Shown: one piece after another, positions 5,222 through 27,097 of the stretch
How the letters are laid out: each line of letters begins with the position of its first letter
How positions within the stretch are numbered: the first letter of the stretch is position 1
Origin: Bacilli bacterium
Lineage (GTDB): Bacteria > Bacillota_I > Bacilli_A > RFN20 > CAG-826
Direction: 5' to 3'
Length of the DNA stretch: 64,000 bases
Assembly: GCA_017470115.1 (NCBI GenBank)
Contig: JAFUEZ010000003.1
Location: 1 to 64,000, forward strand
Notes under the pieces: generated by a model
Told to the model about the DNA's origin: nothing
The model's database searches: none
Seen by the model: only the letters and a program-made list of their open reading frames with translations
Program-made: the position numbers and the translations under genes

Positions 5222-6412
5222 TTAATTTGTGTAATTATCAAAGTATCCTTGGATTAAGATAATTGGTGTACCTTTATCTCCTGATCCACTTGTTAAATCA
5301 CAAAGCGAACCAATCAAATCAGTTAGTTGACGTGGAGTTGTACCTTGTGAAGCCATGTTACCAACTAAATTTGAATCCTTGGTTTTAATTGAGTTTTTAA
5401 TTGCTTCTTTCAATTCTTCACCATTAAGATTTTTATAATCGTTATCAGCTAAATATTTAAGTTTAAGTTCATTAGGTGTACCAACCAAACCTTTTGTAAA
5501 GAATGGTGAAACAACAGGATCAGCAAGTTCCCAAATCTTTCCTTGAGGATCTTTAAAAGCACCATCACCATAAACCATAACTTCAACATGTTTACCGGTT
5601 TTTTCTAAAATAGAAGCTTGGATTTTTTCAACTAATGGTTGTGAATCTCTAGGGAATAATTTGACTTTATCTTCAGTTGATTTATTTGAACCAAGTAAAC
5701 CATATTTTTGATTGTATCCGGAACCATCAACAGAAGAAGTGAGGATATCGTCCATTCCTAAAACAACTTCAGCACCATTTGCTTTCAAGATACGTTTTGT
5801 TCTTGCTCTTGTGTGAATATCGCAAGTCAAAACATGCTTTGTATAATTTAAAATTGCTCTTGGATTATTGGAGAAAATTATCTCACATTTAGCACCTTCG
5901 TTTTCGACTAATTCTTTATAGTAAGAAATGTAGTCTACACCAGTAAATTCATGTACCTTATAGCCGAATAATTCTCTATATTTTTCCAGGCTTAAAACAT
6001 CACTATATGGGTTGATTCCTTTTTCGTCTAAATCATCATAAGTTAATAGTGCATTTCCTACTTCATCACTAGGATATGAGAGCATTAAATAGATCTTTTT
6101 TGCGGCCTTAGCAAAACCCTTTAAAAGGATAGAAAATCTATTACGTGAAAGGATAGGAAAAATGACAGCAAATTCGTCGCTTCCCATCTTATTTTTTACA
6201 TCTTTTGCGATATTTTCAATCGTTGCATAATTGCCTTGTGCACGGGCAACAATTGACTCGGTTAAAGCGATAACATCTTTATCGCGTAATTCAAAATTGT
6301 GAGCTTTTGCAGCGGCTAAAACAGCATTAACAGCAATTTCACTTAAATCATCGCCTTGTCTTATAATAGGGGCTCTAATTCCACGTGAAACTGTACCAAC
6401 TAATCTTTCCAT
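5222..6412 (-). CDS. CofE-like gamma-glutamyl ligase family protein
   Basis: A 396-residue protein of the F420-0:gamma-glutamyl ligase fold. The N-terminal part has the GDDL motif (near residue 21) and DVIALTESIVAR, as in CofE, which adds glutamate to F420-0; a related chlamydial enzyme glutamylates folate. No other F420 biosynthesis gene is present in the window, and this group of bacteria is not known for F420, so the true acceptor may be folate or an unknown molecule. It is a single gene with RBS AAGGA and a perfect inverted repeat in its leader (6436-6456). Fold assignment is firm; substrate is unknown. Confidence 0.75.
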   Translation of the reverse strand: MERLVGTVSRGIRAPIIRQGDDLSEIAVNAVLAAAKAHNFELRDKDVIALTESIVARAQGNYATIENIAKDVKNKMGSDEFAVIFPILSRNRFSILLKGFAKAAKKIYLMLSYPSDEVGNALLTYDDLDEKGINPYSDVLSLEKYRELFGYKVHEFTGVDYISYYKELVENEGAKCEIIFSNNPRAILNYTKHVLTCDIHTRARTKRILKANGAEVVLGMDDILTSSVDGSGYNQKYGLLGSNKSTEDKVKLFPRDSQPLVEKIQASILEKTGKHVEVMVYGDGAFKDPQGKIWELADPVVSPFFTKGLVGTPNELKLKYLADNDYKNLNGEELKEAIKNSIKTKDSNLVGNMASQGTTPRQLTDLIGSLCDLTSGSGDKGTPIILIQGYFDNYTN

Positions 6413-6435
6413 ATATTTAAATTCCTTCTTTGTTA

Positions 6436-6456
6436 AAGTAAGAATATTTCTTACTT
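6436..6456. repeat. Perfect inverted repeat in the leader of the CofE-like gene
   Basis: AAGTAAGAA-TAT-TTCTTACTT, nine-base arms with a three-base centre, lies 24 bases upstream of the start and just after a plausible minus-strand -10 box (TAAAAT). It could be a repressor operator or a leader hairpin. Confidence 0.5.
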
Positions 6457-7243
6457 GAATATTTTATCACTAGATGAGTTTTCTCGGTATTAATCTTAGA
6501 TTAAAAGTTTATATATGATTATCTTTATGATTTAGATAATGAATTTATAAAATATATGATTGTTATCACATATTTTTTATTTATAGGTAAATTCCTAGAC
6601 TTTATTAATTTTAGATTTTAACGCTATTTTGAAATGTAAAATCTAATTAACAAAATTTTCTACATCAATAGCAATAAAGACATTATTTTAGAAAAAAAGG
6701 AATTTCAACTTTAAGACAAATTTACATAACTATAAAAGCTTAAAATAGTGAAAAAAGATATTGAGGGATCTTGAACTCTAATTGAATTTTTTGAGGAACC
6801 TTAAACTAGGTGTAAGTCAAATTTCTGATATCAAACCTTATTGAGTTTTCAGCTAAAGGAAGTGTAAGTTTTGATAGCTAAAAAGTAAGGTAAAAATTTT
6901 TATTGAGGCAAGTAAAAAAATAATTAAAAATATCAAGGAAGAAAAAACCAAAATCTTGTTTAAATTTTGTCTCTATTTTTTTAAACAAACTTTATCCTTA
7001 TATATATAAATAAAGATAAGAAAAAAGTTGCCTTTCATAAGTTTTTTGACTCAGACAAAAGTTAGTCATGACAAATGTGGAAAAGAGATAAAAATTGTAA
7101 AATTTACCCTAAAAAATAGCGTTTCTTGTTCTAAAAAAATTCAATAAAAAAATGTTTCAAAAAAAGTTAAAAATTTTAGTGCTTTTTTATTTGCAAAAAA
7201 TATAAAATGTGAGAGACTAAATACACTCACTTGAGGAGATAAT
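6457..7243. other. AT-rich gene-free region before nrdG
   Basis: About 790 bases with no credible reading frame on either strand. It holds a perfect 10-base inverted repeat (TTAGATTTTA at 6611-6620, TAAAATCTAA at 6637-6646), loose repeats of a TTGAGG..CTT..AACT theme around 6760-6850, a palindrome GTAAAATTTAC near 7097, an AAATAGCGTTT sequence (7114-7124) that recurs in the hydrogenase promoter, and a GTGAG/CTCAC hairpin just ahead of the nrdG RBS. It is probably the control region of the nrdG-nrdD-trxB operon. No riboswitch family is recognised. Confidence 0.5.
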
Positions 7244-11694: not shown

Positions 11695-11829
11695 ATGGAA
11701 GATAAGAAATTCATTATACCACTTGCAGAAGTCGTTGATTTTGCTTGTGATGATATTATTACGTTAAGTGGAAGAGGAAGTCTTAGCAACTTCGGAGACG
11801 ATCCTGATAAAGATATTTGGGGGAACTAA
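11695..11829 (+). CDS. 44-residue small protein, candidate precursor peptide
   Basis: The peptide begins MEDKKFIIPLAEVVDFACDD and continues IITLSGRGSLSNFGDDPD to a WGN end. The pattern of K-x-x-x-P-x-A-E-V followed by DI-I-T-x-SG resembles small Firmicute peptides with a conserved leader and a variable Gly/Ser/Asp tail, which I recall near modification genes. Two bases separate its stop from the lipoprotein start at 11832, and PqqD, kinase, peptidase and exporter genes lie 2.3-6 kb downstream. AGAGG lies nine bases upstream of the ATG; a longer upstream extension of the frame is unlikely because it lacks an RBS. It has no signal peptide. The precursor role is inference. Confidence 0.5.
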   Translation: MEDKKFIIPLAEVVDFACDDIITLSGRGSLSNFGDDPDKDIWGN

Positions 11830-11831
11830 TT

Positions 11832-13055
11832 ATGAAGAAGAGTTTATTTTTATTGGCACTCCCTGTTTTAATGGTATTATTTGGATGCAATAATTCAGGC
11901 TCGGGAATGGGTACAAAAACAAAAGTTTTTGCTGAAGATTGTCTTGCTCATGAAGAAATTTTTGGAAAAGCTAGTGAATTGAAAGCTTTTAATAAAGCTC
12001 CACAAATTAAAAAAGCTGTTCCAACCGTTGAGCATGTTGGTTTCCAAACACTTTACGACGATGAAAATGATAAATATCATGTCAGATTTATTGCTAAAGT
12101 TGCTGATCCTGATAATATTACTGAAGCAACATGGACAAGAAACGCATATGATAGTGCAACAGGCAGTTCATTAGGTCAAAGCACAAAATCACCAACAGGT
12201 TATTATGAAACTGTTAATGATGGTGGCACACCATTAGTGGCAGGAGAAGGTTTTGGTTTTGTTGTCTATACTTTAATGGATATCGGTGAAGAGTACAAAG
12301 ATGATTATATCGTTGTCAGTTTAAGTTTAACAAATGCTGAAGGAACAACAATTTCCTCAACAAGAGTAGCTTCTGCTGATGATACTGTTAGTTATACTTT
12401 TGCTAGAAACGAAACTAAGTTCTATTTAAAAAAAGCAAACGGTTCTCCAGTTCCTCAAGACATTACAACACAAGGAGATAAACCAGAAAATAATTTTGGT
12501 TCATTTTCAAATATTGCTTTAAATAAAGATGACAAATTCTTTATTTTCGGGCAAGATGCAACAAGCAATAATTTCCAAGTAATTAAAGCAAACGGTCTTG
12601 ATACAGGCAATGCTGTTGATAATTATTTCTTTGCAAACGATGAAGGTTCAATTAAAGCAAATTATAAAGCCGACTATACTCTATATTTAAATAATCAAGG
12701 AAAGATTTATGTTTCGGCACAAAATGTTGTTAGACCAATTTATGTTAAAAACGATGTTTGGTGGTGGGGTGCAGACGGTAGATGGACAGCCTTATATGCT
12801 TTTAACGATACAACAAATAGAAAAGATTGGTTTACATTTGTTGAAGAAGGGGCATATTTAAAGACTGCAGAGATTGACCCAACTCTTTATCAAGCAATAG
12901 TTCTTGTTGAAATGAAATCAGGAGGAACAGCTTCTTGGGAAAACCAGAACGAGAGTAATCAAACTTCAAATCTTGAATTTCCAAAGAACAATGAAGATTG
13001 TCTATATTTGTATTTAACGAATAATAATTTAAGTTATTCGTTTGGCTCAAGATAA
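11832..13055 (+). CDS. Surface lipoprotein with two carbohydrate-binding-like modules
   Basis: A 407-residue lipoprotein (hydrophobic leader and lipobox LFGC, near Cys 19). After a short all-beta region, residues about 195-300 form a module of the kind NIALNKDDKFFIFG ... ADYTLYLNNQGKIYVS, also seen in the lipoprotein at 29739. Residues about 300-405 form a second module with VWWWGADGRWTALYAFN, an IVLVEM strand and NQNESNQT, closely matching the C-terminus of the protein at 26195. Such W-rich, NQT-ending modules occur on amylases and surface proteins of gut Firmicutes, so starch or glycan binding is likely. RBS GGGGGAA supports the internal ATG. It follows the 44-residue peptide gene immediately. 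Confidence 0.65.
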   Translation: MKKSLFLLALPVLMVLFGCNNSGSGMGTKTKVFAEDCLAHEEIFGKASELKAFNKAPQIKKAVPTVEHVGFQTLYDDENDKYHVRFIAKVADPDNITEATWTRNAYDSATGSSLGQSTKSPTGYYETVNDGGTPLVAGEGFGFVVYTLMDIGEEYKDDYIVVSLSLTNAEGTTISSTRVASADDTVSYTFARNETKFYLKKANGSPVPQDITTQGDKPENNFGSFSNIALNKDDKFFIFGQDATSNNFQVIKANGLDTGNAVDNYFFANDEGSIKANYKADYTLYLNNQGKIYVSAQNVVRPIYVKNDVWWWGADGRWTALYAFNDTTNRKDWFTFVEEGAYLKTAEIDPTLYQAIVLVEMKSGGTASWENQNESNQTSNLEFPKNNEDCLYLYLTNNNLSYSFGSR

Positions 13056-13630: not shown

Positions 13631-13990
13631 ATGAAGCGTAGACATCTAGTATTAGTTTTATCTATCTTATCAGTTGCTTTGTTTAGCTGTGATAAACCTA
13701 AAGATAATGGTACAAAACCAACTGGAGGCGAGGATACACCAGCTGAAGCAACGACATATCACGTCACATTTATAAATTATAATGATGATGTTCTTTATGA
13801 AGTGGATGTAAAGGAAAATGAAGCCGCTGAATATAAAGGTGAAACACCTACTAGACCAGAAGATGATGAATTTACCTACGAATTTGAAAAATGGGATAAA
13901 GATTTATCATCGATTAAAGAAGATTTAACTACGAAAGCTACTTATAAATATATAGCAAAAGAAAACCGGGGACCAATTCACTGGTTTTAA
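13631..13990 (+). CDS. Small lipoprotein with one InlB-type repeat
   Basis: A 119-residue protein with a lipobox ALFSC near residue 20, an acidic, glycine/threonine-rich linker, and one beta-grasp InlB/Flg_new-type repeat (VTFINYNDDVLYEVDV ... FEKWDKDLSS ... ATYKYI). Such repeats mediate surface interactions. RBS AAGGAAAG supports the start. It sits between the structured leader and the RiPP-like operon; two terminators separate it from the kinase gene. Ligand unknown. Confidence 0.7.
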   Translation: MKRRHLVLVLSILSVALFSCDKPKDNGTKPTGGEDTPAEATTYHVTFINYNDDVLYEVDVKENEAAEYKGETPTRPEDDEFTYEFEKWDKDLSSIKEDLTTKATYKYIAKENRGPIHWF

Positions 13991-14143: not shown

Positions 14144-14863
14144 ATGGTTAATTTTAAGATTAAAATTGCAGGGTTAGTTCTAGAGATAAATTGTTTTAAT
14201 GAAACTACAAAACGATATTGTAGAGATTTTTTAACAGATTTACCTAAAGATTTAGAAATTAATTTAACTGAAGAAGATCTAAAAAACGAAGTAATTAATA
14301 GCACCAATAATCAATTTTATGTTGATGAAGAAATATCGGCTTTATATAGAAAAATTGCTGATACTTTAATTGAAAAGAATATTGTTGTATTTCATTTTTC
14401 ATCAATAAAAGTCGGTGGTTATGCATTTATTTTTACTGCTAGAAGCGGAGTGGGAAAATCAACTCATACAAGACTCTTGTCGGAGTTATTAGGTGATAAA
14501 ATGATTTATATCAATGATGATAAGCCTCTATTAGAAGTTAAAAATGATGAGATTATAATTCATTCTTCGCCATGGAACGGAAAAGAAAGAAGAGGTAATG
14601 ATATTTCGGCCCCATTAAAAGCAATAGTGTTTTTATCTAGAGGAGAAGAGAATACTTATAAAAAAATTGATGATAAAAGCACTCATTATTTAAACCTTAT
14701 ATCTCAGATTTATCTACCATATGATAAAGCAAAAAGAGCAAAAGCTTTAAATATTGCTGATGAGATCATTAAAAAAGTAAATTTATATGAAATTTATGTC
14801 AATAAAGACATTAGTGCAGCTAAAATGACTTATGAAAGGATTATAAAAAATGAAATTAAATGA
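14144..14863 (+). CDS. HPr kinase-like P-loop protein of a RiPP-type cluster
   Basis: A 239-residue protein with a Walker A loop ARSGVGKST (residues 99-107) and the HprK-type NDDKPLL (about 124-130), so it belongs to the HPr kinase/phosphorylase C-terminal fold but lacks the N-terminal half of true HprK. Stand-alone copies of this fold occur in lasso-peptide and other RiPP clusters, where some phosphorylate the peptide. It overlaps the pqqD-like gene by 14 bases and heads an uninterrupted five-gene run. No strong RBS is seen, so a very short leader is possible. The peptide substrate is inferred. Confidence 0.75.
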   Translation: MVNFKIKIAGLVLEINCFNETTKRYCRDFLTDLPKDLEINLTEEDLKNEVINSTNNQFYVDEEISALYRKIADTLIEKNIVVFHFSSIKVGGYAFIFTARSGVGKSTHTRLLSELLGDKMIYINDDKPLLEVKNDEIIIHSSPWNGKERRGNDISAPLKAIVFLSRGEENTYKKIDDKSTHYLNLISQIYLPYDKAKRAKALNIADEIIKKVNLYEIYVNKDISAAKMTYERIIKNEIK

Positions 14864-15122
14864 AAACTTCTTGATTCATGATACTGGAAATGGAGAAATC
14901 TTAATTGCTGTTGGAGAAGAGACAAAGAAATTCCATGGTATCGTAAAATTGAATTCTACAGGCGCAGAAATTGTTCACCTTATTGAACAAAATGACCTTT
15001 CAGTTGAAGAAATCTGTGAGCACTTTTATGAAAAATGCCCAAATGATGATAAAGAAACGATTAAAAAAGGAGTTAGTGATTTTATAAATCAATTAGAAAA
15101 GATTAATGCAATCAAGTTATAA
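14850..15122 (+). CDS. PqqD-family RiPP recognition element protein
   Basis: A 90-residue stand-alone PqqD-like protein. The segment GIVKLNSTGAEIVHLIEQN followed by VEEICEHFYEKC and a C-terminal helix matches the winged-helix fold that binds leader peptides (RRE). In RiPP pathways it delivers the precursor to modifying enzymes. It overlaps both neighbours, so stoichiometry with the kinase and peptidase is probably coupled. Its presence is the strongest sign that the cluster acts on a ribosomal peptide. Confidence 0.82.
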   Translation: MKLNENFLIHDTGNGEILIAVGEETKKFHGIVKLNSTGAEIVHLIEQNDLSVEEICEHFYEKCPNDDKETIKKGVSDFINQLEKINAIKL

Positions 15123-15540
15123 ATTTGAAGAAATACTTGAAAGAGATGGTGAACTCTTTTTTACAAATATTGGATTCTCAATGTACCCATTAATTAGGGA
15201 AAGAGAAGATGTTTTACATATCGTAAAGCAAGATGGAGAGTTCAAAAAAGGCGACATTGTTCTATATAAAAGCCATCAAGAGCATTACGTCCTTCATAGA
15301 ATCTTAAAAGTAAAAAAAGATAAGGTGATACTTGCTGGTGATTATAATTACTTTAAAGATAAACCAATAAGTAGAGATGCTATCTTAGGAAAATTAATTG
15401 AGATTACTAAAAAAGATGGTAAAAAAATCGATCTATCTAAAGATAAAAAAGCGCGCAAATTCTTTTATTCAAATTTCTTCTACATCAAAGCAATGTGGCA
15501 AATAGGATTAAAGATATTACATTTAAGGAAAGTGAAATGA
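15106..15540 (+). CDS. S26-type serine peptidase (signal-peptidase-like)
   Basis: A 144-residue S24/S26-fold peptidase. The catalytic serine is in GFSMYPL (near residue 19), and the general base is probably the histidine of VLHRIL (near 63), the ER/SipW-type Ser-His arrangement rather than Ser-Lys; GDYNYFKD holds the conserved aspartate. There is no clear N-terminal membrane anchor, unlike housekeeping signal peptidases. In this operon it probably removes a leader peptide. It overlaps PqqD (17 bases) and the ABC transporter (4 bases). Confidence 0.75.
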   Translation: MQSSYKFEEILERDGELFFTNIGFSMYPLIREREDVLHIVKQDGEFKKGDIVLYKSHQEHYVLHRILKVKKDKVILAGDYNYFKDKPISRDAILGKLIEITKKDGKKIDLSKDKKARKFFYSNFFYIKAMWQIGLKILHLRKVK

Positions 15541-17186
15541 AAAACAAAGAGACACTAAGATTTATTATTCAAAACATCAAAGGAAAAAAGAGAACGGTTT
15601 TCCTTCTTTCGCTTTGTCAGATTCTTCTTGGCGCTTTGACAGTTGCTTTCTCTTTTATGCTTCGCTTTGTAATTTCATCAATCGAATCTAAAGATAACGA
15701 AGCATTCATTAAATATACCATCATAATGTCAATAATTGCTCTATTCCTCATTATTTTTCAAATTTTTTATAGATTTTATTATGAATATAGTTATGTTGAA
15801 ATCGAGAATAAATTAAAAAATAATTTATTTAAAACGATTCTTAGTAAAGACTATCAAGAAATAAAAAGCAAGCATGAAGAAGAGTGGATACATCGACTTA
15901 CAACAGATACAAATGTAATTGCTTCTTCAATTTTATCAATCCTTCCTTCTCTTTGTAGGATGATTGTTCAACTTGTCTTAGCTCTTGCTGCAATTATTTA
16001 TTTATTCCCTATTTTTGGTTTATCGCTTATTCCTTGTATCTTGTTGATCTTACTTACAACTTACTTTTTACGTAAGAGATTAAAAACTCTTAATCACGCT
16101 ATGCAAGAAAAGGACGCAAGAGTAAAAGTGTTTTTCTCAGAGAGTCTACAAGGATTATCTATTATCCATTCATTTGTGAAAGAAGATGTCTTTATTAAGC
16201 GTAGCGAAAAGGGGGTAGAAGAATACAAGAAAGCTAGACTTAGTAGAAATTATTTTTCAATCATATGTTCGATTTCTTATATTTTTGTTTACTATTTAGC
16301 ATATCTTTTAGGCATATTCTTCTGCGGAAACGCAATTATTGAAGGCACGATGACTATCGCACTTTTGACTTCTTTAATTGCTTTGCTTACTCAACTTACA
16401 GGCCCACTAGGTAATTTAACAGCAATAATTCCTAGATATTATTCTTTACTCGCTAGTGGAGAGCGTTTAAAAGTTGAAATAAACGAACAAGAAAACGCAC
16501 TTACAAAAGAAGAAATTATTGAATATTACAACAATAAATTTAAATCTATTGAAGTTAGAAATATCAACTATTCTTATTTAGATAAATATGGAAACAAAGT
16601 AGAAGCTCTTAAGGATTTCAATTTATCTATTAAGAAGAATGAGAGAATCTTAATTAGCGGACATTCAGGAAGTGGAAAATCTACTTTATTTAGAATTATT
16701 TTGTCGCTTATTAAACAAGATAGTGGAGAGATTGTTTTGGTTGATGAAAACGAAAAGAGTTTATCAAGAAAATACGAACAATTGTTTGCTTATGTGCCTC
16801 AAGAAAACTTATTAATGGAAGGAACAATAGAAGAAGTTATCACTCTATTTGATGAGCAAATTGATGAAAAAACTCTACAAAACTCCATTAAAATGAGTGA
16901 TTCTGAAGAATTTATAAATGATTTAGCTTTAAAAGAAAAGACATTTTTAAATGAAAAAGGAAATGGATTATCTCTTGGCCAAATGGAGCGAATTGCTATT
17001 GCTAGAGCTTTATATAGTGAAGCACCAATTTTGCTTTTGGATGAATGCAGCGCATCGCTTGATGCAGCAACTGAAGAAAAAGTAATTTCGAATATTTTAG
17101 CTCTTGAGAATAAAACTATTGTTTTAATTTCTCATCATAAATACGATGAAAAGTTGTTTGATAAAGTTATTAATTTAGGTGAATAG
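15537..17186 (+). CDS. ABC exporter (fused membrane and ATPase domains)
   Basis: A 549-residue half-transporter: six membrane helices in residues about 15-300, then an ATPase with Walker A GHSGSGKST, Q-loop VPQEN, signature LSLGQ and Walker B LLLDECSAS. The LSLGQ replaces the common LSGGQ. It lacks a C39 peptidase domain, so leader removal would be done by the neighbouring S26 enzyme. The ATG at 15537, with AAGGAAAG upstream and an ATGA overlap with the previous stop, is preferred over an in-frame upstream start. Likely exports the mature peptide as a homodimer. Confidence 0.82.
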   Translation: MKNKETLRFIIQNIKGKKRTVFLLSLCQILLGALTVAFSFMLRFVISSIESKDNEAFIKYTIIMSIIALFLIIFQIFYRFYYEYSYVEIENKLKNNLFKTILSKDYQEIKSKHEEEWIHRLTTDTNVIASSILSILPSLCRMIVQLVLALAAIIYLFPIFGLSLIPCILLILLTTYFLRKRLKTLNHAMQEKDARVKVFFSESLQGLSIIHSFVKEDVFIKRSEKGVEEYKKARLSRNYFSIICSISYIFVYYLAYLLGIFFCGNAIIEGTMTIALLTSLIALLTQLTGPLGNLTAIIPRYYSLLASGERLKVEINEQENALTKEEIIEYYNNKFKSIEVRNINYSYLDKYGNKVEALKDFNLSIKKNERILISGHSGSGKSTLFRIILSLIKQDSGEIVLVDENEKSLSRKYEQLFAYVPQENLLMEGTIEEVITLFDEQIDEKTLQNSIKMSDSEEFINDLALKEKTFLNEKGNGLSLGQMERIAIARALYSEAPILLLDECSASLDAATEEKVISNILALENKTIVLISHHKYDEKLFDKVINLGE

Positions 17187-17187
17187 G

Positions 17188-18303
17188 ATGGAAAAAGAAT
17201 TATATATAAAATATGTAAAAGATTATATTCATCTTATTGCCCTTTATCTTAATAAGAAAGAAGCTGATATTGAAGTAGATGATACTGAGCTAGGATTTTT
17301 TTATAAATTATCTAGTCATCATTCCTTAAGGGCTCTTTTTTATAAAGTAATAATTGATACAAAATTGAAAGTAGATCCTGAAAAACTGAAGAAGTTTGAA
17401 GAGATCTATATGATGAATATTAGAAAGTCGATTTTATATGATAATGAACGCAAAATTCTTTTTGATTTTTTAGGTGAAAATAAGATTCATTATTTGCCAT
17501 TAAAAGGAATAGCGATAAGAGAACTTTATCCTGATAAATTCACTCGTGAATTTGCTGATAATGATATTCTTTTTGCTTCAAACGATAAAGCTATCAAAAA
17601 GTTTTTTGTTAATAGAGGTTATAAGGTTGAAGATTTTAGAAGATCAAATCACGACGTCTATATGAAAGAACCAAGTTTTAATTTTGAGATGCATCGTGAT
17701 TTATTTGCTGATAGAGAAGATAATGCACTAAGCGTTGCCTATTTTAAAAATTATATTGATAAAGCACCTATCAAGGATGGGTATGAGCATTATTTAAAAG
17801 ATGAAGATTTTTATTTATATTTCACTGCTCATACATATAAACATTTCCACGTTTCAGGATGTGGAATTAGAACATTAATTGATTATTACTTATTTTTAAA
17901 AAACAAAACTTTAGATTGGGATTATATTGAAAAAGAGTTAAAAAAGCTCGATTTAGTAGACTTTTCAAAGCAAATATCCTCATTGTCAAGCAAAGCTTTT
18001 AATGATGAGAAGTTAGACGACAAAGAACAAGAGACACTTTTATTTATTGTGTCTTCTGGTACATATGGCACTTTAGAGAACGCTGTAAATAAGGGCGTTG
18101 AAGAAAAAGGAAAGTTTAGATATTTGATGTCTAGAATATTTCCACCTCTAGAATTTTATAAAGGAGCTTATTCTTGGGCTTATAAACATAAGATTTTAAT
18201 TCCTGTCGCATGGTTTGTAAGATTATTTAGAATCGTCTTCAAAAGTAATAAGCAAGCTCGCGATGAACTCAAGGCTATAAAGAAATCAAAAGCGAGCAAA
18301 TAA
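17188..18303 (+). CDS. Nucleotidyltransferase family protein (PF14907-like)
   Basis: A 371-residue protein related to the uncharacterised nucleotidyltransferases found in lasso-peptide and other RiPP clusters. The core reads LPLKGIAIRELYPDKF then EFADNDILF, where LKG and the D-x-D motif are the family's catalytic signature, followed by a conserved histidine-rich FEMHRDLF. Adjacent genes encode the kinase, RRE, peptidase and exporter, so it may transfer a nucleotide or other group onto the peptide. Start chosen at ATG after TTTAGGTGAATAGG; its start lies one base after the ABC stop. Confidence 0.72.
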   Translation: MEKELYIKYVKDYIHLIALYLNKKEADIEVDDTELGFFYKLSSHHSLRALFYKVIIDTKLKVDPEKLKKFEEIYMMNIRKSILYDNERKILFDFLGENKIHYLPLKGIAIRELYPDKFTREFADNDILFASNDKAIKKFFVNRGYKVEDFRRSNHDVYMKEPSFNFEMHRDLFADREDNALSVAYFKNYIDKAPIKDGYEHYLKDEDFYLYFTAHTYKHFHVSGCGIRTLIDYYLFLKNKTLDWDYIEKELKKLDLVDFSKQISSLSSKAFNDEKLDDKEQETLLFIVSSGTYGTLENAVNKGVEEKGKFRYLMSRIFPPLEFYKGAYSWAYKHKILIPVAWFVRLFRIVFKSNKQARDELKAIKKSKASK

Positions 18304-23778: not shown

Positions 23779-24348
23779 ATGAGCAAAAAAGCATTTTTAA
23801 TTGGAGCCATGGTCGTTTGCCTTGCAGGATCGGTTGGTACTGTTTTCGCATTGACTAGAAACTCCGCAGCAGCTACAGGAACAAGTGGTAACTTTGATCA
23901 AGCAATTAATCTATATTGGGGACATGAATCAACAACAGCCACAATCGATAATTGTGAAAACTTAGTTCAAAATAGACCTGTATATCGTTATTTAACTGTT
24001 TCTCCAAAATCAACAAAATCAGTTGCTGGAAATGTTACATTATCATTTACAATGGCGGCAAAATCAGCAACAAACTTTGTTGATGGTATGACAGTTAAGG
24101 TTTATCAAACCGCTGCATTAGCAACTGATGAAACAATTGCTAGTGCATTAAATGAAAATCCAGCTAAATTAACTCTTGATAAAGATCATTTAACAGGACA
24201 AACATCTTTTGCTGTCGTTGCAAGCAATGATAATCAAACACATGAAACTACAGCATATTATGCTATTGAATTAGTGTATGACGGAACTGAAGTTGCTGGT
24301 AAAACTTTAAGCGGTTCAATTACAATCGCCCAATCCTTTGGCGCATAA
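23779..24348 (+). CDS. TasA/CalY-like matrix protein with SipW-type signal
   Basis: A 189-residue secreted protein. The leader has a basic start, a hydrophobic core and the cut region VFALTRNSAAATGT.SGNF, the SipW-dependent pattern of TasA/CalY proteins (cleavage after a small residue, followed by an Asn/Phe-rich start). The mature part is an all-beta domain of about 160 residues with few aromatics and no cysteine except one. In Bacillus such proteins polymerise into biofilm fibres. It heads the operon that includes the matching signal peptidase at 25315. RBS AAAGGAAAAC. A 190-base leader precedes it with an AAATAGG/CCTATTT stem. Confidence 0.68.
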   Translation: MSKKAFLIGAMVVCLAGSVGTVFALTRNSAAATGTSGNFDQAINLYWGHESTTATIDNCENLVQNRPVYRYLTVSPKSTKSVAGNVTLSFTMAAKSATNFVDGMTVKVYQTAALATDETIASALNENPAKLTLDKDHLTGQTSFAVVASNDNQTHETTAYYAIELVYDGTEVAGKTLSGSITIAQSFGA

Positions 24349-24363
24349 TAGGAGGTAATAATC

Positions 24364-25269
24364 ATGAAAAAGAGTAAGATTATCGCTATTGGCGCTGCAG
24401 TATCAGGCGTATTAGTTAGTTTTGGAGCAGCATTTGCACTTTATGTTTCAAATGCAAGCAATGCAAGTTTTGATTTCTCAGCCGCTACTGGTTCAGAAAG
24501 TACAGGTACAGTAAATTATTTAATTACAAACGCTAACGAAGGAAAAGTAGCTGTTGAAGGTTATTATGATGAAGCCGGAGTAAATAAAGGAACTGGCATA
24601 TCTGCTGATTTCCCACAAGTTCATTATCAATTTGATTTAGGTGCATCATTTGCTAATGGTGTTCCATCTCAATCATATGTTTTAGGAAATCTTTCAGCTT
24701 CATTAACTTTACTTGATGAAACTTTAGCAGGAAAAGTTACAGTTTATGCTTCTTTAGATGGCTATCAAGAAGGTAAAGTCGGCGCAAATCTTTATGGTGG
24801 CGCATTAATTGATAATTTAGTTCCAGCTGCTGATGCATTGACTGTTTCAGCAAATAAAGACGTTTGTGTTACATCAAATGGCGGACAACATTTAAGTGTT
24901 TGGGTCAAATTTAATATGGAAGGTGTCGACCTTTTACAAAAGAATGAAGCTGGTTCACTTTATAATTTATCAGTCAATTTTGGTGATGTTAGCCAAGGAT
25001 TCAACAAGGCTTATGTTGTTTGTGGTGCTACAAATTGGTCACCAGATGATAAATATGCTATGTCAGTTAACATCAATGCAGATAATTATGAATGGATGTA
25101 TAACGGAATAGTTGGTACAGCCGAAGCTGGTGGTTTTGAAAAGATTAATTGTTTCTGCAATGGAGTATGGGGAAATGCAGATGCTCCACTTGAAGAAGGC
25201 GAGACCTATGATGTTTATTGGTTAGGTGGAAACGCTAATCCAGTAAATGCTGTTAAAAGAAACGCTTAA
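24364..25269 (+). CDS. TasA-type protein with C-terminal carbohydrate-binding-like module
   Basis: A 301-residue secreted protein. The leader ends AAFALYVSNASNASFDF, the same SipW-type layout as its neighbours. Residues about 45-215 are a TasA-like beta sandwich (QFDLGASFANGVPSQSYVLG). Residues about 218-301 are a separate module, NKAYVVCGATNWSPDDKYAM ... YEWMYNGIVGTA ... CNGVWGN, which has the G-x-x-NW, M and W pattern of starch-binding modules (CBM26/SusE-like appearance). A fibre subunit that displays a glycan-binding module beside amylase genes would tether starch. RBS GGAGGTAATAATC. Module identity is by eye. Confidence 0.6.
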   Translation: MKKSKIIAIGAAVSGVLVSFGAAFALYVSNASNASFDFSAATGSESTGTVNYLITNANEGKVAVEGYYDEAGVNKGTGISADFPQVHYQFDLGASFANGVPSQSYVLGNLSASLTLLDETLAGKVTVYASLDGYQEGKVGANLYGGALIDNLVPAADALTVSANKDVCVTSNGGQHLSVWVKFNMEGVDLLQKNEAGSLYNLSVNFGDVSQGFNKAYVVCGATNWSPDDKYAMSVNINADNYEWMYNGIVGTAEAGGFEKINCFCNGVWGNADAPLEEGETYDVYWLGGNANPVNAVKRNA

Positions 25270-25281
25270 TTATTAAAATGA

Positions 25282-25310
25282 TTCCTCCCCTATAATGGGG
25301 AGGAAATATA
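25282..25310 (+). promoter_or_regulatory. Hairpin enclosing the SipW-like peptidase RBS
   Basis: TTCCTCCCC (25282-25290) pairs perfectly with GGGGAGGAA (25297-25305), and the right arm contains the Shine-Dalgarno for the ATG at 25315. No T run follows, so it is not a plain terminator. It would keep the peptidase at lower levels than its substrates. Confidence 0.6.
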
Positions 25311-25314
25311 AAAT

Positions 25315-26205
25315 ATGGAAAAAAAGAAGGAAAAATCTAAATTTATCAGAGCCTTAAAGATAATTGGCAACGTTTTGTTTTATGCTTTTGCAGGAATAAT
25401 TATTTTTGTTGCAATATTTAATGGCATTGATAGACATAGTGGTTATAAAGCATCCTTTTTTGGTCTCCATTCAGCCGTTGTAGTCAGTGACTCAATGGCA
25501 TTAAGAAACCCAAATAATACTTATCTTGATGATTCAATGGAACAAATCGAAAAATTTGATTTGATTACTTTCCAAGAATATAAGAGTTTCGATGATGTCA
25601 AAGTTTATGATGTTGTGACTTATTATTATGATGACACCCTAGTTGTTCATAGAGTAATTGATAAATACACATCTGTTGATCCTGATAGTGGTGTTACAAA
25701 ACAATTTTTAGTTACAAAAGGCGATTCAAATAATTCTGCTGATACTCCATTTGAATATTCGCTCGTAAGAGGAAAGGTCATTTGGAAAATTCCTAAGGTT
25801 GGAGCAATTTTTGCTTTTACAGGAACTTTGTATTTCTGGTTTGCATTATTCACATCAATCTTTATTATTCTTGTAATAATTTATATTTTGAAATATTTAA
25901 AACCAGGATTAGAAAGAAGACGTATTGCAAAATATGAACGTCAAAAAGCGATAGAAGCAGAAGTTATCGAGCGTAAAAAAGACGTCAAAAAAAACGAAAT
26001 AAATAAAGAAGAAGAAAAAAGAGAAAGAAAATTTGGTGGAAGAAGCCCACATTATAGAAGTGAAAGCGAAAATTTATTATCAAAACAAGATAGTTGCAAA
26101 GTAGATGGTAGAAGCTATACAAGAACTAGTTACTTTAGTCAAAATAACGATAATAAGGCTTCAAATTTAGTATTACAAGTTTACGAGGAGAATTATGAAG
26201 ACTAA
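25315..26205 (+). CDS. SipW-like (ER-type) signal peptidase I
   Basis: A 296-residue S26B peptidase. Membrane helix at about 17-40, catalytic serine in VVSDSMA (near residue 60), probable general base His in VVHRVID (near 108) and aspartate in KGDSN (near 140), a Ser-His-Asp arrangement as in SipW and Sec11. A second helix spans about 165-192. A charged, helical cytoplasmic tail of about 100 residues is extra compared with SipW. It probably cuts the three SipW-type leaders encoded at 23779, 24364 and 26195. Its 3' end overlaps the next gene by 11 bases. Confidence 0.8.
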   Translation: MEKKKEKSKFIRALKIIGNVLFYAFAGIIIFVAIFNGIDRHSGYKASFFGLHSAVVVSDSMALRNPNNTYLDDSMEQIEKFDLITFQEYKSFDDVKVYDVVTYYYDDTLVVHRVIDKYTSVDPDSGVTKQFLVTKGDSNNSADTPFEYSLVRGKVIWKIPKVGAIFAFTGTLYFWFALFTSIFIILVIIYILKYLKPGLERRRIAKYERQKAIEAEVIERKKDVKKNEINKEEEKRERKFGGRSPHYRSESENLLSKQDSCKVDGRSYTRTSYFSQNNDNKASNLVLQVYEENYED

Positions 26206-27097
26206 TAAAAAGGTAATTTTATCAATTCTAACAGTAGCTCTTTTAGGCTCCTCTTTTACAAGTGCATTTGCCTTAACTACAAAAGGAGCAACAAATGTAG
26301 AATTTGATTTTGCTGCAAAAGAAAAAGTTACAGTAACATATTTTGTTCCTGCTCCTAATGCAGAAGGTGATTATTTAACATTTGAAGAAAAATCACTTAA
26401 AGCTTATGAAGGTGATTCATTATCTAGTTTAGGTTTCGAATTTAATTCAATTGGTGGAGGATTTAGTTTTGATTCATGGAATTCTTCTAACGATTTTGCA
26501 AGTGAAACAAAATTAAGTGACGATGCAACAGTTACTGGTGATATGACGCTTTATTCTAAATTTACAAGAAACAATGTCTTATATTTTTATAATGAAGAAC
26601 ACAATTATTTAACAGCTAGTAGTGGAGATGAGATTTTAACTCAACAAAATTATTATGTTGGTATTCAAACATATGGAAAATATGGTGTAGAGGGTGAGAC
26701 AATCAATTTGACTAGTGAAAGTGGAATTTATAAATTCACCTTAAACGAAGGAAATTGGAGTTGTTCTCGTAAACTTACTATTAGTATTAAAGATGTTACT
26801 TGGTGGAATAGCGACGGAGCAATTTCTAAACTTTGGTGCTTTGGTTCATCAAGTTTAGCTGATGGTTATACAGATGCTTTTACATTTACTGATAACGCAA
26901 GCACAGTTTATATTGACGCATCATTTACAGGATTTACATTTGATCGACTTAATCCTGGTGATTTGACTCAAAGACGGAATCAAACGATTGATATCTCTTT
27001 AAATTCTGATAGTGGATCAAAAAAATATACAAAGGATTCAATAATTATTTATGTCAATGGTGAGACCGTTGATGGAAAAAATAAATATTATTATTGA
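26195..27097 (+). CDS. Secreted SipW-type protein with InlB-type repeat and W-rich module
   Basis: A 300-residue protein with the leader end AFALTTKGATNVEFDFAA, matching the proteins at 23779 and 24364. Residues about 45-130 resemble an InlB/Flg_new repeat (VTYFVPAPN ... FSFDSWN ... TLYSKF). Residues about 180-290 form the W-rich module VTWWNSDGAISKLWCFG ... DAFTF ... RRNQTIDISL, alignable with the C-terminus of the lipoprotein at 11832. This module occurs on starch-active surface proteins, so it probably binds polysaccharide in the matrix. RBS CGAGGAGAATT. Confidence in secretion route is higher than in ligand. Confidence 0.62.
   Translation: MKTNKKVILSILTVALLGSSFTSAFALTTKGATNVEFDFAAKEKVTVTYFVPAPNAEGDYLTFEEKSLKAYEGDSLSSLGFEFNSIGGGFSFDSWNSSNDFASETKLSDDATVTGDMTLYSKFTRNNVLYFYNEEHNYLTASSGDEILTQQNYYVGIQTYGKYGVEGETINLTSESGIYKFTLNEGNWSCSRKLTISIKDVTWWNSDGAISKLWCFGSSSLADGYTDAFTFTDNASTVYIDASFTGFTFDRLNPGDLTQRRNQTIDISLNSDSGSKKYTKDSIIIYVNGETVDGKNKYYY

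Follow-up and report, generated by a model that had tools for sequence, protein, structure and literature searches.

A divergent LPP-type maturation cluster in a Bacilli genome that probably serves dispersed precursor peptides encoded beside surface-protein genes

The closest described relatives of the locus analysed here are the clusters for linear polyphosphorylated peptides (LPP), which Popov et al. (Nat Commun, 20 May 2026; PMC13381572) defined by the gene set lppK-B-S-D-N in that order, with the lpp cluster of Paenibacillus alginolyticus DSM5050 as the type. In P. alginolyticus the kinase introduces one to four phosphorylations on core Ser3, the signal-peptidase-like LppS cuts off the leader only when the RRE LppB is present, and activity of the nucleotidyltransferase LppN was undetectable upon heterologous expression; no product has been reported for the type cluster (PMC13381572). 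The structure of the LppB-LppA leader complex has been solved (9x8z), with Asp70 of LppB hydrogen-bonded to a leader Tyr and Asn33 fixing the Pro kink (PMC13381572). In Bacilli, clusters of this type have between one and three precursors nearby and are distributed patchily, in a manner that resembles horizontal transfer and is typical of conflict genes (PMC13381572). The roles discussed for LPP so far are those of conflict peptides or biofilm factors.

Phosphorylated lasso peptides of the paeninodin/pseudomycoidin type rely on related machinery, namely a kinase acting on Ser through a His-Lys-Asp-Asp catalytic set (PMC9266682), a discrete RRE reading a [Y/W]xxP leader, and a PF14907-like protein, which in the case of pseudomycoidin (PsmN) adds hexoses to phospho-Ser (review PMC9266682). 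An HprK-like kinase together with a PqqD-like protein is likewise found in the HprK-related kinase A/B systems (NCBIfam TIGR04352, TIGR04353 and TIGR04355), matches to which are weak only, far below the curated cut-offs, and useful for naming only.

In the window, i.e. the whole stretch of 64,000 nucleotides that was analysed, five tightly packed genes on the + strand encode a predicted HprK-like peptide Ser kinase (LppK-like, 14144-14863), a discrete RRE or PqqD-like protein (LppB-like, 14850-15122), a putative leader peptidase of the S26 type resembling archaeal-type signal peptidase I (LppS-like, 15106-15540), an MsbA-like ABC exporter (LppD-like, 15537-17186) and a PF14907 nucleotidyltransferase-like protein (LppN/PsmN-like, 17188-18303). 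Overlaps of 14 bp (kinase/pqqD), 17 bp (pqqD/S26) and 4 bp (S26/ABC) join the first four genes, and a gap of 1 bp separates the exporter gene from the nucleotidyltransferase gene, which starts at ATG 17188; the listed frame of the exporter begins at GTG 15495, its likelier start being ATG 15537. The preliminary description of this DNA had reported five genes that overlap or lie one base apart. It had taken them for a RiPP-type cluster whose products are a kinase related to HprK, an RRE, a leader protease of the signal-peptidase type, an ABC exporter and a protein of the PF14907 family. Both statements are borne out. It had also asked whether the five genes are kept together in relatives, which they are: the set is found again in the same taxonomic order and in Clostridia, and hence the arrangement goes beyond chance.

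Concerning the individual proteins, the kinase of the window has no match of its own in Pfam or NCBIfam, and the kinases of named relatives give weak matches to HprK-related models. Its AlphaFold model, obtained from 43 homologues (pLDDT 94), has the PEPCK/HPr-kinase fold, with Foldseek E values of about 1e-6 to PEPCK and HprK/P (HPr kinase/phosphatase) structures, and H84, K105, D125 and D126 are invariant among the 43 homologues. The RRE matches PqqD (PF05402, E=1.2e-11). A search of the PDB with the RRE sequence alone returned influenza hemagglutinin HA2 (E 2e-4 to 3e-3), which was judged a chance match because a profile of 14 RREs matches TbiB1, PbaB1, LppB, TfuB1 and PqqD instead. The peptidase matches TIGR02228 (archaeal-type signal peptidase I) with E=1.3e-11, which is under the curated cut-off of the model; Ser25, His64 and Asp79 are invariant in nine homologues, and the Ser-His spacing of 39 equals that of LppS (S29-H68). 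Asp79 lies in a GD motif and may be the counterpart of the catalytic D93 of LppS. Both the membrane and the ATPase domain of an ABC exporter are matched in the fourth protein, and the fifth matches NTP_transf_5 (PF14907, E=6e-38) with invariant K106-G107 and D124-x-D126.

The gene cluster is of the LPP type and already described. The earlier claim that the combination could not be matched to a described class fails, as the exact K-B-S-D-N set in its exact order is that of the published family (PMC13381572), so that a new RiPP class is ruled out; full-text literature searches returned no second description of this gene set besides that paper. Beyond gene content and order, the locus has in common with LPP clusters the HprK-like kinase, the MsbA-like exporter, the PF14907-like protein, the signal-peptidase-I-like peptidase with identical Ser-His spacing, the lack of a cyclase, and a discrete RRE with the conserved Asn33 (N35 in the window); F78 corresponds to LppB F74. 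It differs in that the Asp70 site of the RRE is occupied by Gly74 and in that the leader carries Phe, and it lies outside any capsule locus, with precursors that are spread across the genome next to genes for secreted proteins. The published leader consensus (YxxPxVLxHQxIxFETxxS / Px9Fx[T/A]) and the window sequence FIIPLAEVVDFACDDIITLS agree only in the aromatic-xxP element and in having the Ser at a similar distance, VLxHQ and FET being absent and DD[IV]I being conserved ahead of the Ser. Because most of the leader consensus and Asp70 are missing, we file the locus as a divergent variant working like LPP.

A candidate precursor of 44 aa, MEDKKFIIPLAEVVDFACDDIITLSGRGSLSNFGDDPDKDIWGN, is encoded on the + strand at 11695-11829, approximately 2.3 kb upstream of the cluster, and is the sole match to the leader profile within the window (E=1.1e-9, the peptide itself being excluded from the profile). 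It displays FxxP (F6, P9), DDII, a nearly invariant Ser25 and an acidic core ending in an aromatic region, and is preceded by a Shine-Dalgarno-like AAGAGG. The aromatic residue, Pro and Ser come in the same order as in LppA, the Pro-to-Ser distance being 16 here and 15 there; [Y/F]xxP placed about 15-16 residues ahead of a conserved Ser is a trait common to the window and LPP leaders. Neither this peptide nor the two lipoprotein genes that follow it (11832-13055 and 13631-13990) had appeared in the preliminary description. The genome encodes four precursors in total, the three others (contigs C23:237552, C22:154554 and C15:22450) each lying 2 to 21 bp from a secreted-protein or lipoprotein gene. 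The divergent leader motif of these dispersed precursors is [FY]xxP...DD[IV]IxxS.

A census of 279 genomes of the order, in which a precursor was counted as a frame under 110 aa with E below 0.005, yields 84 precursors in 36 genomes, and matches to the kinase profile in 38; these thresholds were picked after viewing the lists, in which a wide gap separates the small-frame matches from the remainder. Leader-profile matches inside frames of 200 to 2400 aa were taken as chance and excluded. Kinase and peptide occur together in 30 genomes, the kinase only in 8, the peptide only in 6 and neither in 235 (Fisher p=4.5e-27), some of the 14 unmatched genomes being incomplete. The association persists at the level of genera (both 13, kinase only 2, peptide only 0, neither 41; p=5.6e-11), and within the genus of the window the identical three of 26 genomes hold both. 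Twenty of the 84 precursors lie at most 10 kb from the kinase. Precursors with divergent leaders also occur in Ruminococcus and other Clostridia, where leader-like peptides are often encoded immediately upstream of the kinase. A Shine-Dalgarno-like site precedes 77 of 81 precursor starts, compared with 10% of random ATGs. The link between precursors and cluster is both statistical and positional, and suggests that the cluster would modify these peptides.

The dispersed peptides are further tied to this RRE by residue covariation at the contact seen in the LppB-LppA structure. Asn is invariant at the Asn33 site across all RREs aligned. In 37 of 38 genomes or loci, Asp at the LppB D70 site coincides with a leader Tyr, and in 17 of 19, Gly, Ala, Ser or Cys coincides with leaders that have Phe or are mixed Phe/Tyr (p=2e-11), the leader classes having been curated by hand, with two leaders misread by the automatic motif search. 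In the tree of kinases, carriers of the Phe state, the window among them, fall into three distinct groups, of which two are in Bacilli and one is in Clostridia, beside relatives with the Tyr/Asp pair. The pattern fits the solved structure, since Phe has no hydroxyl for the Asp to bind, and constitutes natural, repeated evidence for the published mechanism of RRE recognition.

Precursors were discovered by sequence, neighbour context playing no part, and for 76 of 81 a gene for a secreted protein or lipoprotein lies on the same strand no more than 150 bp away. Judged by a simple rule based on hydrophobicity and the lipobox, 94 of the 110 close neighbours look secreted, versus 85 of 362 (23%) other genes of the same loci (p=4e-32). 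Typically the secreted gene comes first and the precursor follows after 10 to 20 bp; the secreted neighbour is upstream only in 47 cases, downstream only in 17 and on both sides in 11. The same layout is seen in Ruminococcus flavefaciens Y1 and other Clostridia. Prochlorosin precursors are also dispersed in the genome, and we know of no pairing of these with secreted-protein genes. There too one enzyme set, the single ProcM of Prochlorococcus and Synechococcus, serves many precursors (PMC10783134), whereas the chemistry is that of lanthipeptides and the enzymes and leaders are unrelated.

One group accounts for 50 of 91 neighbours, and most of its members share a domain of about 170 aa at the C terminus, for which Pfam has no family. 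This domain is undescribed and near-exclusive to cluster-bearing genomes: of the 279 genomes, 27 encode it, and 22 of these also have the kinase. Its motif, RFGxxI...GV...AAAYI...F.E..SVxxLA, joins large secreted proteins that otherwise differ (L059, L072, L073, L136, L138 and others); a fold model is poor (pLDDT 67) and gives only insignificant Ig/FN3-like matches. Two of the secreted proteins from precursor loci (L073, 5226-8255; L063, 1067-3613) have N-terminal parts that resemble, by eye, nucleases of the extracellular endonuclease I type (YSGNYYxxIDFS...MNGxLR).

In the window, the precursor is followed after 2 bp by a lipoprotein gene on the + strand (11832-13055, lipobox LFGC), whose product has no Pfam or NCBIfam match over cut-off and belongs to a 'LAHEEIFG' family that makes up 11 recurrent precursor partners across genomes. 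An equivalence of its N-terminal domain with the C-terminal domain shared by other partners is not supported (hhalign probability about 1%). Further downstream on the same strand, 13631-13990 encodes a small lipoprotein with no Pfam match, one InlB/Listeria-Bacteroides-like repeat recognised by eye and the tail RGPIHWF. Similar small lipoproteins lie beside precursors in five genomes (G209, G210, G199, G203 and G198).

Taking these data together, we consider it highly probable that the window locus is a divergent LPP-type maturation cluster serving several precursors in trans. A precursor of about 45 aa, encoded within or close to a secreted-protein or lipoprotein operon (11695-11829 and the three elsewhere), would be bound by the RRE via [F/Y]xxP, and by analogy with the homologous systems the HprK-like kinase would then phosphorylate the Ser just past the leader, most likely Ser25. 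The PF14907 protein may cap or glycosylate the phosphate, the cytosolic signal-peptidase-like Ser-His enzyme would cut off the leader presented by the RRE, and the exporter would release a core that is linear, acidic and about 20 aa long. RRE recognition is the one step with independent support in this analysis; phosphorylation, capping, leader removal and export are modelled on homologues. The flow given in the preliminary description, from RRE recognition through a phospho- or nucleotidyl-type modification and an S26 cut to export, is consistent with results on the homologous lpp cluster. The nearly invariant Ser may accept the phosphate, the reading we prefer because of where it stands with respect to Ser3 of LppA, or may instead occupy P1 at the signal-peptidase-like cut. 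Judging from gene order, the product would act with or on the cell-surface protein encoded alongside.

In a different reading, the locus is an ordinary LPP cluster with one local peptide (11695-11829) used in competing with other bacteria, and the dispersed peptides are chance lookalikes or relics. The one to three local precursors and patchy, conflict-gene-like spread of Bacilli LPP clusters (PMC13381572) would agree with this, as would the candidate 2.3 kb upstream of the cluster; we regard it as quite improbable, given that the presence of dispersed peptides follows the kinase across and within genera, that these peptides keep FxxP/YxxP, the Ser and ribosome-binding sites, with Tyr or Phe following the RRE residue, and that their adjacency to secreted-protein genes (76 of 81) is non-random. 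Descent from a paeninodin-type lasso-peptide cluster that lost its cyclase is hardly credible: an HprK-like kinase, an RRE and a PF14907 protein are held in common, and the RRE profile matches the lasso RREs TbiB1 and PbaB1 too, but the cluster encodes neither macrolactam synthetase nor B2 protease, the whole genome is without PF13471 (B2) and has no PF00733 (Asn synthetase) match over cut-off, the cyclase-free five-gene set is conserved over many genera, and at the site where paeninodin RREs have Gly, this RRE has the Asn seen in LPP RREs. Moreover, in contrast to that type, a Ser protease takes the place of the B2 cysteine protease, and the Ser lies near the start of the core instead of at its C terminus. 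With neither B2 nor cyclase, a lasso cluster was ruled out.

Considered rather unlikely is that the same pathway makes signalling or quorum-sensing molecules, the secreted neighbours being regulated output instead of binding partners. Small exported modified peptides in operons for extracellular proteins would suit regulation, as would variable cores behind conserved leaders; yet no gene for a receptor or regulator was seen to recur among the neighbourhoods that were read, such a variety of cores in one genome is unusual for a single signal, and most peptides follow the secreted gene within one transcription unit. From gene order, a product working with the adjoining surface protein is favoured, a signal being possible. 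As a plausible, still tentative generalisation of in-trans maturation, LPP-type clusters of gut Bacillota may form a general system in which many short phosphorylated peptides are each dedicated to the adjoining secreted or lipid-anchored protein, as ligand, anchor or assembly factor, and in some Clostridia act as one tag presented two ways.

Dispersed precursors, their pairing with surface-protein genes and natural covariation at the recognition site are new to this type of system. The adjacency to surface genes points to a previously undescribed role at the cell surface, and a dispersed precursor family tied to such genes provides a concrete, testable hypothesis on what LPP do. The dispersal also shows why cluster-centred mining (within 5 kb) overlooks most precursors. 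In addition, the LPP-type system is extended to the cultured gut species Ruminococcus flavefaciens and Faecalibacterium prausnitzii.

Some further observations concern the tails of the small lipoproteins. In Clostridia, precursor-adjacent small lipoproteins of six loci (L307, L309, L223, L268, L320 and L315) end in precursor-core sequence. In L307, for example, the lipoprotein (5779-6279) ends ...SDKPIELPLVPLR and the peptide (5627-5758) ends ...SNEPIELPLVPLR; in L309, a pair spotted by eye, the respective ends are ...DDGLEWSPLTPIN (5949-6392) and ...DDGLNWSPLTPI (6415-6552). When scored against mismatched pairs, 5 of 43 Clostridia pairs match at p<0.005, and many Clostridia lipoproteins have an [IV][ED]LPxxPx-like tail even without the same peptide ending. 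Bacilli small lipoproteins (13631-13990 of the window, L134, L135, L146, L148 and L156) bear W/R-GPIxWx-like tails, recurrent beside precursors, with no clear match to the peptide cores in Bacilli. Finally, the window also encodes, at 23779-27094, four small secreted or cell-surface proteins in a row, in which Pfam recognises only one Listeria-Bacteroides repeat and the first of which looks TasA/camelysin-like by eye.
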